A stretch of 64,000 bases of DNA, taken from assembly GCF_009753675.1 (NCBI RefSeq), contig NZ_WQLV01000002.1:248001-312000 (forward strand), read 5' to 3'. Within the stretch, counting starts at the first letter, position 1. Every line of letters starts with the position of its first letter. Shown piece after piece: positions 22,049-61,598 of the stretch. The translations under genes were made by a program, and so were the position numbers. The notes under the pieces were generated by a model. It saw only the letters and a program-made list of their open reading frames with translations. It searched no databases and was not told the origin of the DNA. The DNA is from Parasedimentitalea huanghaiensis. GTDB taxonomy: Bacteria; Pseudomonadota; Alphaproteobacteria; Rhodobacterales; Rhodobacteraceae.

Positions 22049-22076
22049 GGTGCGTGCAAGCACACACCCTACACAG
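22049..22076 (-). repeat. REP-like hairpin, copy 1
   Basis: 28-base element reading, on the minus strand, CTGTGTAGGGTGTGTGCTTG and onward; a GTAG tetranucleotide (CTAC at 22069-22072 on +) abuts an imperfect hairpin GGTGTGT-GCTTGC-ACGCACC. It lies between the coiled-coil gene and moaE and matches the copies flanking the transposase at 48931 with one base difference in the stem. Confidence 0.8.
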
Positions 22077-47272: not shown

Positions 47273-48850
47273 ATGGCAAAATTCGCGCAGGTTCGGTGCA
47301 TCTTTCCGGCCCGTTTGGGCTTGGGAATTCTGACAGCTTTCTGGCTGTGTATTCTGGTGCCGATGGCGGCCAGTACCGCCCCATATGCGGCATTGGTGAT
47401 GGATGCGCGCACTGGCGAGGTTCTACACTCTCGCAACGCTGATACCCGCCTTCACCCTGCATCCCTGACCAAAATGATGACGCTCTATATCGTTTTTGAA
47501 GCGGTGCGGAACGGTGAAATATCTTTGGACACCAAGGTCAAGATCAGTCGCAACGCCGCGTCTGAACCCCCTTCTAAGCTGGGCTTGCGTACCGGTCAGA
47601 CGATCGCACTGCGCTATCTCATCAGGGCAGCAGCCGTGAAATCCGCAAATGATGCCGCCACTGCACTGGGCGAAGCCATTTCGGGGTCCGAGGCTGCTTT
47701 TGCACGCCGCATGACCCGCACAGCAAAATCACTGGGCATGACACGTACCACCTTTCGCAATGCCCATGGGTTGACCCAATCCGGGCACATGTCGACCGCC
47801 CGTGACATGACAACGCTGGGGCGACATATTCTGTATGACTACCCCGAATACTATAACCTGTTCTCTCGCCGCTCGACTGATGCCGGAGTAAAGCAGGTGA
47901 ACAATACCAATCGACGCTTACTGGCAGCCTACCGTGGCGCCGATGGCATCAAAACCGGCTATACCAATGCTGCTGGGTTTAACTTGGTCGCCTCTGCCAA
48001 GCGCGGTAACGAACGCATCATCGCAACAGTGTTTGGCGGCAAATCCACCGCCTCACGCAATGCCAAAGTTGCCGATCTTCTTGATCTAGGGTTTCGCAGG
48101 GCACCGTCGCAGGCACGATTGCGCCGCCCCGGCCTGCCGCAATATGTCGGCAATATCGAAGCCCCTGTCGCCGCCAGTGCAGCCGGTTCGGGTAAGACTG
48201 TCAGACCCAACGGGTTAGTCACCACCAGCCTTCGCCCCAAAACCCGCCCTGCGGCCAACAGTGACGAAACCGTTCTACGCCTGGCCGAGGCCGAAATCCC
48301 TCCGGAACCCAGCGCAGATCCTGCAGCTGCAAGTCCGGTTGAAACAGATCAAAACTTGCTGCGTACAAGCATTCAGGCCGCTTTGGCTGAAGCGGAAGAA
48401 AACCCTGTAACTGAAGCTTTGGCAGAAGCACTCCAGATCGAAACAGCCACACTAACTGAAACAACCACAGAACAGGTGGTTGCAGCGGTGGCCGCGGCAC
48501 CACAGCCTGCGGTTTATACCGGATTGCGGCCTACAGCGCGCCCCGCCAACCTTAGGACAACTCCGGTGGCAGCGGCGGATCCAGTTGTTGTGACTCGCTT
48601 GTCCACCTCAGGAGGACGTCACTGGGGCATCAATGTTGGTCGTTTCAACACCCGGTATCAGGCAGAAAAAGTACTTCTGCGGACTGCACTGGCTGAAATG
48701 GAGACGCTGGATGGCAGTCTGCGCAAGGTGGCCCAGTCTAATCGTGGGTTTGAAGCAAACTTCCTCGGCATGACGCAGGAAGGCGCAGATCTGGCTTGTC
48801 GCCGTCTCAGTGCCCGCAACGTGGCCTGCACCCCCATCGGGCCATCCTGA
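47273..48850 (+). CDS. D-alanyl-D-alanine carboxypeptidase with SPOR-like C-terminus
   Basis: Penicillin-binding protein of class C low-mass type, 525 residues. A signal peptide at about 10-37 precedes the three active-site motifs: ASLTKM (Ser64-Lys67), AVKSAND (about 121-127, SxN) and GIKTGYT (about 224-230, KTG). Residues 290-440 are an Ala/Pro/Glu/Thr-rich linker; the last 80 residues (WGINVGRFNTRYQAEKVL...) look like a SPOR peptidoglycan-binding domain. It trims peptidoglycan in the periplasm. Confidence 0.9.
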   Translation: MAKFAQVRCIFPARLGLGILTAFWLCILVPMAASTAPYAALVMDARTGEVLHSRNADTRLHPASLTKMMTLYIVFEAVRNGEISLDTKVKISRNAASEPPSKLGLRTGQTIALRYLIRAAAVKSANDAATALGEAISGSEAAFARRMTRTAKSLGMTRTTFRNAHGLTQSGHMSTARDMTTLGRHILYDYPEYYNLFSRRSTDAGVKQVNNTNRRLLAAYRGADGIKTGYTNAAGFNLVASAKRGNERIIATVFGGKSTASRNAKVADLLDLGFRRAPSQARLRRPGLPQYVGNIEAPVAASAAGSGKTVRPNGLVTTSLRPKTRPAANSDETVLRLAEAEIPPEPSADPAAASPVETDQNLLRTSIQAALAEAEENPVTEALAEALQIETATLTETTTEQVVAAVAAAPQPAVYTGLRPTARPANLRTTPVAAADPVVVTRLSTSGGRHWGINVGRFNTRYQAEKVLLRTALAEMETLDGSLRKVAQSNRGFEANFLGMTQEGADLACRRLSARNVACTPIGPS

Positions 48851-48864
48851 CCGCACAAACTCCC

Positions 48865-48892
48865 GGTGCGTGCAAGCACGCACCCTACACAG
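48865..48892 (-). repeat. REP-like hairpin, copy 2 (left of transposase)
   Basis: Hairpin GGTGCGT-GCAAGC-ACGCACC followed by CTAC (GTAG on the minus strand) and ACAG, lying 39-66 bases before the transposase start. It is inverted relative to the right copy, so the GTAG feet face the gene. Confidence 0.85.
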
Positions 48893-48930
48893 ATTCAGAG
48901 GTTGTTGACCATGTTGGCTGATGCTGGGGT

Positions 48931-49386
48931 ATGTCCCGGTATCTACGCCCTCGCGCGCCCGGCGCCACAATCTATTTCGTAGTTTGCCTGGCGCAGCGCG
49001 GTTCAACTCTTTTGATTGACGAAATTGACGCCCTGCGCGCCGCTGTTGGCCTGACCCGTCGCCAGCACTCCTTCCATGTTGATGCCTGGGTGGTGCTACC
49101 TGATCACATGCGATGCATCTGGACATTACCCGCTGGGGACTGCGATTTTTCGACACGCTGGCGCCAGATCAAAACCCGGTTCTCACGTGCTGTACCGCGC
49201 CAGATCACCAGCGCAAGCCAACTGGCGCGACGCGAACGCGGTATCTGGCAACGCCGATTCTGGGAGCACCACGTCCGCAACCCGCCGGACTATTGGCAAC
49301 ATATGGACATTTGCCGTGACGCTCCGGTCAATCTTGGTCTCGTCGAGAAGAGTGCCGACTGGCCTTATTCATCCTTTCGCATCTGA
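48931..49386 (+). CDS. REP-associated tyrosine transposase (RAYT), active site degraded
   Basis: Y1/IS200-type transposase-like protein of 151 residues. The core strand VDAWVVLPDHMRCIWTLP (residues 50-67) and the end WPYSSF are RAYT traits, but the HxH motif reads H59-M-R61, and the usual catalytic-tyrosine stretch (DYIHYNPV-like) reads DICRDAPV. With both residues substituted it is unlikely to cut DNA. REP-like hairpins with GTAG feet flank it on both sides, in inverted order. It lies between a DD-carboxypeptidase and the cco genes. The start codon has only a weak ribosome site. Confidence 0.85.
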   Translation: MSRYLRPRAPGATIYFVVCLAQRGSTLLIDEIDALRAAVGLTRRQHSFHVDAWVVLPDHMRCIWTLPAGDCDFSTRWRQIKTRFSRAVPRQITSASQLARRERGIWQRRFWEHHVRNPPDYWQHMDICRDAPVNLGLVEKSADWPYSSFRI

Positions 49387-49414
49387 CCGTGTAGGGTGTG
49401 TGCTTGCACGCACC
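49387..49414 (+). repeat. REP-like hairpin, copy 3 (right of transposase)
   Basis: CCGTGTAG followed by GGTGTGT-GCTTGC-ACGCACC, directly after the transposase stop codon. GTAG at 49391-49394 immediately precedes the hairpin, as in enteric REP elements recognised by TnpA-REP. Confidence 0.88.
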
Positions 49415-49433
49415 TTTGATGTCTCAAAAAGGC

Positions 49434-49592
49434 TCAAGGCTTGGGATGATCATCCCATTCATCACTGAGTATCCTTTGTGAATCACCTTCCGGATCATCA
49501 TATTGATTGCTGCGCACGGTATATAGAAAACCAAGCAACCCCAGCCCCCCCAGAACCAGCGAAATCGGGATCAAATAAAACAAAACTTGCAT
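49434..49592 (-). CDS. ccoS: cbb3 oxidase assembly protein CcoS
   Basis: Small assembly factor of 52 residues. A hydrophobic helix (residues about 2-25) followed by an acidic tail (DDPEGDSQRIL) is the CcoS pattern. It follows ccoI by four bases and completes the ccoGHIS group. Its length is under the usual ORF-calling limit. Confidence 0.85.
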   Translation of the reverse strand: MQVLFYLIPISLVLGGLGLLGFLYTVRSNQYDDPEGDSQRILSDEWDDHPKP

Positions 49593-49596
49593 GTGC

Positions 49597-51774
49597 TTAC
49601 CTCAACCGAAGGGCATTCAGGGACACTGTAATTGATGAGGTCGACATCGCCAAGGCGGCGATCAGCGGCGTTGCCAAGCCTGCCACCGCCAGCGGCACTG
49701 CAATCACGTTATACAAGGTGGCCAAGCGGAAGTTTTCACGAATGCGCTTGGTGGCACGGTGTGCAACATCACAGGCCTCTGCTATCGGGGTCAGATCCTG
49801 GCCCAACAGCACTATGTCCGACGCAACGCGCGCAGCGTCCAATGCCGAGGCAGGTGAGATCGACACATGCGCAGCCGCTAACGCAGCGGTATCGTTCAGA
49901 CCGTCACCAACCATCAGCACCTTGTGGCCTTGCTCGGACAAGACCTTGATCCGCTCGACTTTATCTTCCGGCAGAGCTTCACCAACCCAATTGGTAATCC
50001 CCAAACGCGCCGCTAAAATCTGAACAGCCCCTTTAGAATCACCTGACACCAGTTGAACCTGTTTACCAGCGCCCAGCAGTGCCTGTACTGCCGCCTCTGC
50101 TCCGGGACGCAACGCATCGGTAAACATAAAGCCCTGCGGGTATTCATCACCGATATCCAACCACGCCGCAGTTACATCGCTCTGCTGCGCCCCAACCCAA
50201 GCCGCGCGGCCCAAACGAACGCGAGAGCCACGAAACGAACCTTCGGTGCCATAGCCTGGCACCTCGTGAATATCGCTGACCGCTGCAGCAGTTATGCCAG
50301 CCTCACCTGCAGCCTGCGCCAGAGACTTTGACAACGGATGCGCCGATGCTTCGGCCAGAGCCAGCGCAATCTCCAGATCGGCTCGCTTGAAATCTGCCAG
50401 ATTGGTCAATTGCGGTGTTCCAGCTGTCAGCGTACCAGTTTTATCGAACACCACTGTGTCCACCTGTGCCAAACGTTCCAGTGCAGTGGCATGTTTGATC
50501 AACATCCCCTTGCGAAACAACCGCCCCGAGGCCGCTGTGGTCACCGCAGGCACCGCCAGTCCCAGCGCACAGGGGCAAGTGATGATCAGTACCGCCGCAG
50601 CAATGTTCAGCGCCGTGCGCAGATCCCAAGAGTACAGATACCAGCCAGCAAAGCTGAGCGCCGACAGGATATGCACCCCCGGCGCATACAGTTTCGCTGC
50701 ATTATCCGCCAAAGACGTATAGCGCGACCGACCGCTCTCAGCGATCGCCACCAAATCGCCCATCCGGTGGAGTGATGTATCTTCACCCACTGTCGTGACC
50801 CGAATGGTCAACGGCCCGGTCAGGTTGACCTCACCTGCCGAAACCCCCTGCCCCTGCTCAGCAAACACCGGCAAGGTTTCCCCGGTCAGCAGCGAACGAT
50901 CCAGCTCAGATTGTCCCGAAACCACCTCACCATCTACAGGCATACGGCCGCCAGGGCGGACCAGGATCAGATCACCAATCGACAGTTCACCAACGGAAAC
51001 TTCGCTTTCAACACCATCACTCAGGCGAATGGCACGGGGAACCTCCAACGCCGCCAGTTCCTCGGCGGCAGATCGCGCCACAGCGCGGGTGCGAAAGTCC
51101 AGATAGCGCCCAGCCAGCAAGAAAAAGGTCAGGGTCAGGGCCGCATCGAAATAGGCGTGTTCCCCCGACAGCGTAGTCTCCCACAGCGAGGTGACCAAGG
51201 CCAGCACCAACGCCAGCACAATTGGCACATCCATGTTCAGCCGACGCACCCGCAAGGCACTCCAGGCGCTTTTGAAAAATGGCTGCGCGGAGAATGCAAT
51301 GGTTGGCAGGGTGATCGCGGCAGATATCCAATGGAACATGTCACGGGTGGCATCCGTCGCCCCGGCCCAGACAGAAACCGACAGCAACATCACGTTCATC
51401 GAGGCAAAACCGGCAACGGCCAACCGCATCAGCAAATCACGGCCTGCCTTGTCACCCTGGGTTGCCGTTAACGTGCCGAGATCCAGCTCATGCGCCTCAT
51501 AGCCCAAATCACCCAACACCGGGATTAAATCGGCGGCGCGCACGTCAGGCTCCGCCTCAATCATTGCCCGCTTCAGGGTCAAGTTGACCCGCGCCGAAGT
51601 TACTCCGGGCGTAGCATTCAAACCCCGTTCCACAGCAGAAATACAGGCCTGGCAGTGAATACCAGGAAGTGACAGCGCCAGCCGGGACGACGTGGGTGCC
51701 TCGTCAACTGCATCTCGCGGAACCGCCAGGCAACCCGGGCAGGCCGCCGCAGAGGGGCGGATTTGAGCCGTCAT
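49597..51774 (-). CDS. ccoI: copper-translocating P-type ATPase CcoI
   Basis: P1B-type ATPase of 725 residues needed for copper delivery to the cbb3 oxidase. N-terminal Cys pair and a heavy-metal domain motif HCQAC (residues 40-44), CPC in the ion channel helix (ITCPCALGLAVPA near residue 398), the phosphorylated DKTGTLT near 440 and MVGDGLNDTAAL near 630. Longer N-terminus and HMA with CxxC fit the FixI/CcoI group, which exports copper out of the cytoplasm for oxidase maturation. Confidence 0.95.
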   Translation of the reverse strand: MTAQIRPSAAACPGCLAVPRDAVDEAPTSSRLALSLPGIHCQACISAVERGLNATPGVTSARVNLTLKRAMIEAEPDVRAADLIPVLGDLGYEAHELDLGTLTATQGDKAGRDLLMRLAVAGFASMNVMLLSVSVWAGATDATRDMFHWISAAITLPTIAFSAQPFFKSAWSALRVRRLNMDVPIVLALVLALVTSLWETTLSGEHAYFDAALTLTFFLLAGRYLDFRTRAVARSAAEELAALEVPRAIRLSDGVESEVSVGELSIGDLILVRPGGRMPVDGEVVSGQSELDRSLLTGETLPVFAEQGQGVSAGEVNLTGPLTIRVTTVGEDTSLHRMGDLVAIAESGRSRYTSLADNAAKLYAPGVHILSALSFAGWYLYSWDLRTALNIAAAVLIITCPCALGLAVPAVTTAASGRLFRKGMLIKHATALERLAQVDTVVFDKTGTLTAGTPQLTNLADFKRADLEIALALAEASAHPLSKSLAQAAGEAGITAAAVSDIHEVPGYGTEGSFRGSRVRLGRAAWVGAQQSDVTAAWLDIGDEYPQGFMFTDALRPGAEAAVQALLGAGKQVQLVSGDSKGAVQILAARLGITNWVGEALPEDKVERIKVLSEQGHKVLMVGDGLNDTAALAAAHVSISPASALDAARVASDIVLLGQDLTPIAEACDVAHRATKRIRENFRLATLYNVIAVPLAVAGLATPLIAALAMSTSSITVSLNALRLR

Positions 51775-61574: not shown

Positions 61575-61598
61575 GTAGGGTGTGTGCTTGCACGCACC
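61575..61598 (+). repeat. REP-like hairpin, copy 4
   Basis: GTAG followed directly by GGTGTGT-GCTTGC-ACGCACC, eight bases after the uspA stop. Identical over 24 bases to the right-hand copy at 49391. Confidence 0.88.

Follow-up and report, generated by a model that had tools for sequence, protein, structure and literature searches.

The window, i.e. the whole stretch of 64,000 nucleotides analysed here, contains a homologue of the REP-associated tyrosine transposases (RAYTs) placed between two inverted REPs (Table 1). A previous sequence-only reading had described these elements as near-identical 28-base repeats, each with a GTAG foot facing the gene and touching a hairpin with a 7-bp stem. 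The inverted pair around the gene was recovered with a length of 26 nt rather than 28 (48865-48890 and 49389-49414, 96% complementary), and both arms carried GTAG directly 5' of the palindrome, with the feet facing the gene as described. The hairpin was likewise present, although its stem was not of 7 bp: the left stem reached 9 bp on paper, and the DNA fold gave 8 bp with a 4-nt loop. The 24-mer formed by GTAG and the hairpin matched four sites in the window, compared to none in 100 dinucleotide shuffles. An Rfam search over 48800-49500 returned nothing credible (three matches, all far under their gathering scores). The neighbouring genes encode a D-Ala-D-Ala carboxypeptidase-like protein (47273-48850) and a copper-type P-type ATPase (49597-51774), which we take to be CcoI; cbb3 oxidase genes, named from plasmid matches, are found nearby.

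Table 1. Features of the RAYT locus and dispersed REP copies in the window. Residue numbers of E. coli TnpA-REP follow structure 4er8.
Feature	Position	Strand	Description
Left REP	48865..48888	-	GTAG + GGTGCGTGC-TT-GCACGCACC; 14 nt past the stop of the upstream gene
Right REP	49391..49414	+	GTAG + GGTGTGTGC-TT-GCACGCACC
RAYT homologue (REP-associated tyrosine transposase)	48931..49386	+	151 aa, catalytic residues lost
RAYT codon 61	49111..49113	+	CGA; Arg replaces the second HUH histidine (E. coli H61)
RAYT codon 127	49309..49311	+	ATT; Ile replaces the nucleophilic tyrosine (E. coli Y115)
RAYT codon 131	49321..49323	+	GCT; Ala replaces Asn (E. coli N119)
RAYT codons 106-116	49246..49278	+	W106 Q107 E112 H113 R116 = E. 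coli W94 Q95 E100 H101 R104, GTAG-recognition region
Dispersed REP copy	22049..22072	-	24-mer GTAG + hairpin match
Dispersed REP copy	61575..61598	+	24-mer GTAG + hairpin match

The window RAYT scored 150.9 bits against the NCBIfam family NF047646 (REP_Tyr_transpos; cut-off 80). A sequence search of solved structures gave the E. coli TnpA-REP (4er8; E = 6.5e-35) as its sole relative at E 0.001, and a Pfam search at the same threshold gave no family. The AlphaFold model (pLDDT 90.5) had 4er8 as top Foldseek match (TMq = 0.84), i.e. a TnpA-REP fold. The family model, the closest structure and the presence of 46 footed REPs in the genome support the proposed RAYT/REP system (REPtron), and the REPtron criterion, a RAYT between inverted GTAG-footed REPs with further copies elsewhere in the genome, was fulfilled. 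The earlier reading implied a working REP-copying enzyme, and it overlooked that the window RAYT lacks residues needed for DNA cutting. No second RAYT was found beside the window gene in its genome (G000; 4.86 Mb, 40 contigs). A RAYT was found at the same locus in five of the seven congeners searched, giving six in all with the window's own, and the congener search returned no RAYT match in G003 and G005. Outside the genus, RAYTs occurred on 24 plasmid records, every one below 60% identity to the window protein, and the RAYT matches listed from a titled genome collection, among which the genus was absent, did not exceed 62% identity to it. In a tree of 106 proteins, the genus RAYTs grouped together (100/99) with a long branch (0.84 changes per site), which would fit a burst of change followed by constraint.

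Aligned to 4er8, the window RAYT possesses H-M-R instead of the HUH H-M-H, with isoleucine at Tyr115 and alanine at Asn119. The G004 homologue has R61/L115/A119, those of G002 and G007 have R61/Y115/A119, with the tyrosine retained, and those of G006 and G001 have H61/L115/T119 and H61/L115/A119, respectively. Based on this residue alignment, all six genus RAYTs lack N119 plus H61 and/or Y115 (Y115 absent in 4/6, H61 in 4/6, and N119, replaced by Ala or Thr, in 6/6). Among relatives from the titled genome collection (80 of 559 confirmed), H59 and H61 were present in 80/80, Y115 in 77/80 and N119 in 72/80; one of the two search patterns used to find these relatives favoured H or R at position 61. 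According to a figure legend of PMC6006769, transposition in vivo requires N119, and changing the catalytic tyrosine to phenylalanine left no product in three TnpA-REP systems, E. coli Y115F included (PMC8266576). Earlier alignments, as far as their available sections go, had the HUH motif and the tyrosine retained in every RAYT compared (PMC3733652, PMC2817692). Sequences without HuH and Y were excluded as probably non-functional in the available text of PMC6006769, so RAYTs of this kind may have been filtered from surveys.

The equivalents of W94, Q95, E100, H101 and R104, which belong to the GTAG-recognition region of E. coli TnpA-REP (PMC6006769, in part), are invariant in the six genus RAYTs. 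All six lack the C-terminal tail with which E. coli TnpA-REP contacts GTAG, as do several near relatives with intact catalytic residues. In G004, G006 and G001 (loci L023, L025 and L027), the RAYT frame extends through the right REP, which yields a hairpin-encoded C-terminal tail; in the window, a TGA ends the frame just ahead of the right REP.

A search of G000 with the hairpin pattern (up to 3 mismatches) returned 48 forward and 49 reverse matches, compared to 1 and 1 for a reversed-pattern control. Among the 48 hairpin sites examined, 46 had a recognisable foot and 43 a perfect GTAG; the two footless hairpins (C11:279901 and C37:239084) were left out before the 46-site counts, and the 49th match (C11:360905) was rejected as a REP because it had 5 mismatches with the foot included. 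The outcome by which the REPtron proposal was to be refuted, i.e. only the four copies of the window existing genome-wide, did not occur. REP orientation was assigned from the foot alone, and the loop, read on the GTAG strand, began with T in 46/46. The REPs were mostly single, with 7 inverted pairs besides the one at the RAYT gene. As the list was built with the hairpin pattern in G000, it is biased toward good copies.

As to the clustering in intergenic regions that the sequence-only reading suggested checking, 37/46 REPs were intergenic and 9/46 within a frame called by a simple gene caller. With 43 perfect feet and 7 doublets in addition, the copies fulfilled the criterion for GTAG-type REPs, which calls for GTAG immediately 5' of a palindrome in dispersed, extragenic and commonly paired copies. 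The intergenic copies were situated between convergent genes (18) or tandem genes (19), and never between divergent ones. REPs within 15 nt of the stop of a long frame, on either side, represented 35/46, compared to 55/1840 random positions counted on one side only. With two gene callers, gene ends seemed to lie preferentially at the hairpin end without the tag, but a fuller count did not make this significant (25 on the tail side and 14 on the foot side; p = 0.11), and no such preference is claimed.

All 46 REP loci of G000 were located in G004, whose RAYT, like that of G000, lacks H61, Y115 and N119, and 45 still had a REP. Only REP-holding G004 loci were fetched, otherwise without selection by REP state, and all 46 G000 loci fell within them. 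One doublet is represented there by a single copy, which has lost its foot, and another copy has a 5-nt gap. The doublet (C23:136446-136520 in G000) corresponds to a single footless hairpin at C1:565674 in G004, from which the intervening stretch is gone; a further G004 hairpin, C22:10132, is also footless. Between the two genomes, changes affected 8/805 stem, 5/177 foot and 8/90 loop positions, and 4.4-8.5% of flank positions. The stems differed strongly from the +20 to +69 flank (118/2292; p = 1e-8) and the feet less so (p = 0.02), so that constraint on the foot, as estimated from this one pair, would be only moderate.

Stability extended to the more distant G002, which differs from G000 by 46.5% at the third codon positions of two host genes. 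There, 33/46 G000 REPs were found at the same place and in the same orientation, and 3 more had kept their place but were oriented differently or ambiguously. The rest consisted of 3 sites at which the flanks were recovered without any REP in the nearest 150 nt (one of them with a REP 327 nt away), 1 weak match and 6 without a fetched locus. Conversely, 37/55 G002 REPs had a partner in G000 or G004, and 46/55 in at least one other genome, decayed G003 copies included (these counts cover 55 of the 60 sites counted per strand). In G006, 20/46 G000 REPs were matched in 21 loci, which are all the G006 loci fetched. The loci of G002, G004 and G006 were chosen because they hold REPs, and those of G003 partly so and partly by synteny alone. 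Overall, the G000, G004 and G002 REPs did not fulfil the criterion of a mobile population, namely copies at differing places between related genomes.

These comparisons bear on whether the locus is an ordinary active REPtron, in which the RAYT would still nick and copy REPs, if very rarely, either with a reconstituted active site or despite its substitutions. Family membership and fold are clear, Y115 is retained in G002 and G007 and H61 in G006 and G001, and residual activity in G002 and G007 is not excluded, since their tyrosine persists. A tyrosine six residues ahead of the Y115 position is also present in 6/6 genus RAYTs, but E. coli TnpA-REP has it too, and its Y115F variant gave no product in the part of the report available (PMC8266576). 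Nine of the 55 G002 REPs had no partner in any locus fetched, and one exact footed G004 REP (C21:197096, locus L203) had none in the G000 loci examined; its near flank fails to align at the expected end of G000 contig C7, and gain, loss and rearrangement could not be told apart. As some G000, G002 and G004 REPs lack partners, some turnover or gain remains possible. Against ongoing copying stand the loss from all six RAYTs of residues kept in most of the 80 relatives, and the recovery in G004 of every G000 locus, 45 with their REP. We consider an active REPtron unlikely.

The loss of catalytic residues was not accompanied by decay of the coding sequence. Across all 15 pairs of genus RAYTs, dN/dS ranged from 0.08 to 0.21 (NG86, 149 codons), and with YN00, which gave a value for 14 of the 15 pairs, from 0.05 to 0.375, the highest being that of G000/G004. 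Synonymous divergence among the three RAYT clades (NG86 dS = 0.89-1.47) is close to or beyond saturation. For three pairs sharing a loss, neutral simulations begun from one member of each pair matched or undercut the observed nonsynonymous fraction in 9/1677, 0/2759 and 0/1013 runs without a stop; stops arose in 45-80% of all runs. As judged from these codon comparisons, the RAYT has been under purifying selection after the residue loss.

The abundance of REPs followed the presence of the gene within the genus. Exact footed 24-mers numbered 37 in G000, 30 in G001, 54 in G002, 36 in G004, 52 in G006 and 51 in G007, compared to 3 and 1 in the RAYT-less G003 and G005, and the six RAYT-bearing congeners were the only ones among 101 genomes with at least 30 exact copies. 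At orthologous sites with both flanks found, the 24-mer was perfect in 25/27 cases in G002, 0/25 in G003 (three of these sites with 10-11 mismatches) and 1/6 in G005. At the 21 places common to G002 and G003, it was perfect in 19 and 0, respectively. The 19 shared sites still recognisable in G003 had changes at 1/76 foot and 0/342 stem positions in G002, and at 16/76 and 34/342 in G003, these rates omitting two of the 21 sites (more than 7 mismatches); the choice of loci partly favours G002, whose loci were REP-selected. With a hairpin pattern blind to the foot, perfect feet accompanied 139/150 hairpins in G000, G004 and G002, compared to 9/28 in G003 and G005 (p = 1e-11), the G003 tally taking in sites of unclear orientation. 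A Fisher test on exact hairpins gave the same direction (260 of at most 280 compared to 4/9; p = 3e-4), with denominators that are upper bounds; palindromic TA-loop sites were counted double in one hairpin tally.

The earlier reading would have been refuted by related genomes having the repeat without any RAYT homologue, and this was only partly the case: G003 and G005 retain few repeats, in decayed form, but G041 (family f1, genus g35) holds 11 perfect footed 24-mers with no RAYT match at 1e-5, contrary to the trend. G041 may have lost its RAYT recently, its assembly may have a gap, or it may be a genuine exception. At the empty RAYT locus of G003, the left REP persists in decayed form (4 mismatches), which indicates that the gene was lost there. 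In a rooted tree of the ATPase, G003 and G005 grouped with G002/G007 (100%), so one or two losses are inferred; the two were sisters at 53% in this tree and not in two DNA trees. That REPs fade after RAYT loss was already known, since REP abundance is tied to the cognate RAYT in the accessible text of PMC3686654, where frameshifted or stop-bearing RAYT pseudogenes are also described.

The same data can be set against the proposal that the RAYT is on its way to becoming a pseudogene, with the hairpins conserved independently of it, as terminators or mRNA 3' structures. The REPs do stand directly after stop codons, and effects of REPs at 3' ends have been reported: E. coli REPs this near a stop codon reduce translation and stall ribosomes (PMC12306157, in part), and REPs are said to affect termination and mRNA half-life (PMC8049555, in part). 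At least 69 REPINs are likewise said to occur per E. coli genome, RAYT-less ones included, in what was available of PMC8049555, and the perfect copies of G041 point the same way. Yet dN/dS is near 0.1 in most pairs, and the reading frames are intact across a dS mostly above 1 between clades. Moreover, the GTAG foot lies outside the hairpin and is nevertheless retained where the RAYT is present and lost where it is absent, the stems of G003 decay also, and TTT follows just 5/46 hairpins (GTAG strand only, without a formal terminator scan). Given the dN/dS values and the foot-blind GTAG test, neither the terminator-only nor the pseudogene reading was retained, and together they now seem improbable.

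It is also conceivable that the REP/RAYT pair lost its use in G003 and G005 in some other way, that both decayed, and that RAYT loss was a consequence of relaxed selection on REPs. With one or two losses only, the comparative data are unable to order these events, and nothing decisive speaks against it; such joint decay likewise treats the RAYT and its REPs as a single functional unit and differs in causal direction only, and we regard it as very unlikely. Gene conversion among copies, instead of selection, is hardly tenable as the source of REP identity: the copies are near-identical and the RAYT-flanking pair has the same loop type within G000, G002 and G006, but a site-specific stem variant (C3:88462) persists across species (G000, G004 and G006), and the loop changes at the flank rate (8/90) when the stems do not, although no formal test of concerted evolution was made. 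At C3:88462, both sides of the stem have changed together from the consensus and are retained in G004 and G006; the G006 orthologue has one loop change, and in G002 the doublet is missing there.

The explanation that we find probable, though by no means settled, is that of a domesticated REPtron, now a DNA-binding system without catalysis that the host maintains at the 3' ends of genes. The RAYT would have lost DNA cutting and joining while the genus radiated or earlier, and selection would keep it as a reader of the GTAG-hairpin. The 30-54 intact REPs per genome would be fixed sites bound by it, most of them no more than 15 nt from a stop codon, and not a spreading population. The protein may bind the GTAG-hairpin as single-stranded DNA (or RNA), and its binding may act on the adjacent gene, where the termination of transcription, the 3' end of the mRNA or the release of ribosomes could be affected, or on local DNA structure. 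At the level of the compared genomes, the residue losses, the constraint on the protein, the stability of most REPs, the constraint on stems and more weakly on feet, and the decay without RAYT are established; catalytic inactivity, binding of REPs by the protein and any effect on the neighbouring gene are inferred, in the absence of binding or expression data. A weakness of this domestication model is that there are only two RAYT-less congeners, possibly representing one loss.

Compared to known systems, the locus resembles RAYT/TnpA-REP and REPtrons (4er8; NF047646) in protein family, fold and GTAG-region residues, as well as in having one gene at a locus common to the genus, inverted flanking REPs with GTAG touching the hairpin, and dispersed REPs and doublets. 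It departs from them in that the genus RAYTs lack N119 plus H61 and/or Y115, with H-M-R for the HUH motif in four, that most REP positions in the genus are stable, and that REPs decay where a catalytically impaired RAYT is lost. It was filed as a RAYT/REP variant because it is a member by descent, yet fails the catalytic criteria of an active transposase. The small hairpin and GTAG foot recall the short-hairpin REPs of group 3 RAYTs in Stenotrophomonas and Marinomonas, where the loop position also matters, being a T in Marinomonas (PMC8266576, in part). Unlike group 3, the window RAYT has E/H at positions 100/101, the state of the group 2 protein of E. coli; subclass 2.5, equated with group 3 in the available part of PMC6006769, has D instead of E100. 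Like the REPIN populations of Pseudomonas and E. coli, the genus REPs are small repeats in stable, moderate numbers that are commoner with a cognate RAYT (PMC3116915, PMC8049555, both in part). Unlike those populations, they are mostly single, with 30-54 exact copies, and their RAYT lacks residues that replication should need.

TldR proteins descended from TnpB nucleases. They are RNA-guided transcription factors (PMC13418256, in part), and in them, as here, a transposon nuclease relative became a regulator through catalytic loss, regulation being inferred in our case. The genus RAYTs differ in belonging to the TnpA-like HUH family and in having no known guide RNA. A catalytically dead RAYT could thus be a dedicated GTAG-hairpin reader, with the fixed REPs as operator-like sites at gene ends, forming an HUH-transposase counterpart of the TldR-type dead-nuclease regulators; we find this narrower proposal evenly poised.

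It is still unsettled why RAYT genes and REPs persist in bacteria over such long periods. Little evidence for a benefit to bacteria is acknowledged in what is available of PMC8049555, and in a model described in the accessible part of PMC3686654 REPs cannot be sustained unless their RAYT is active. In the openly licensed PubMed Central literature, no paper was found on catalytically dead yet conserved RAYTs, nor on this 24-mer REP family in Rhodobacterales; what is new here is that REPs are kept alongside an intact but catalytically impaired RAYT. Replication and benefit appear evolutionarily separated in this genus: residues are lost and most REPs are static, both partners are kept, and REP decay accompanies gene loss. 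If the proposal of a dedicated GTAG-hairpin reader is true, the genus would directly show that the REP/RAYT partnership can pay its way without REP replication. Host benefit would be testable by a single gene deletion, the outcome of which should not be confused by transposition.

At 17 other RAYT loci, the remaining flanks showed different GTAG hairpins or none detected, but the same 24-mer hairpin flanks two of the genes (Allosediminivita pacifica, L059; Paracoccus benzoatiresistens, L062); on the evidence of these sequences, the REP type is not peculiar to the genus. Other Rhodobacteraceae-type RAYTs also miss a catalytic residue (L060, L086 and L094, and the G056, G013, G057, G035 and G022 loci L033, L041, L036, L038 and L043), with states such as F115/A119, H115 or V59/L115/A119. 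As these proteins scatter over the 106-protein tree, catalytic loss may have occurred several times.
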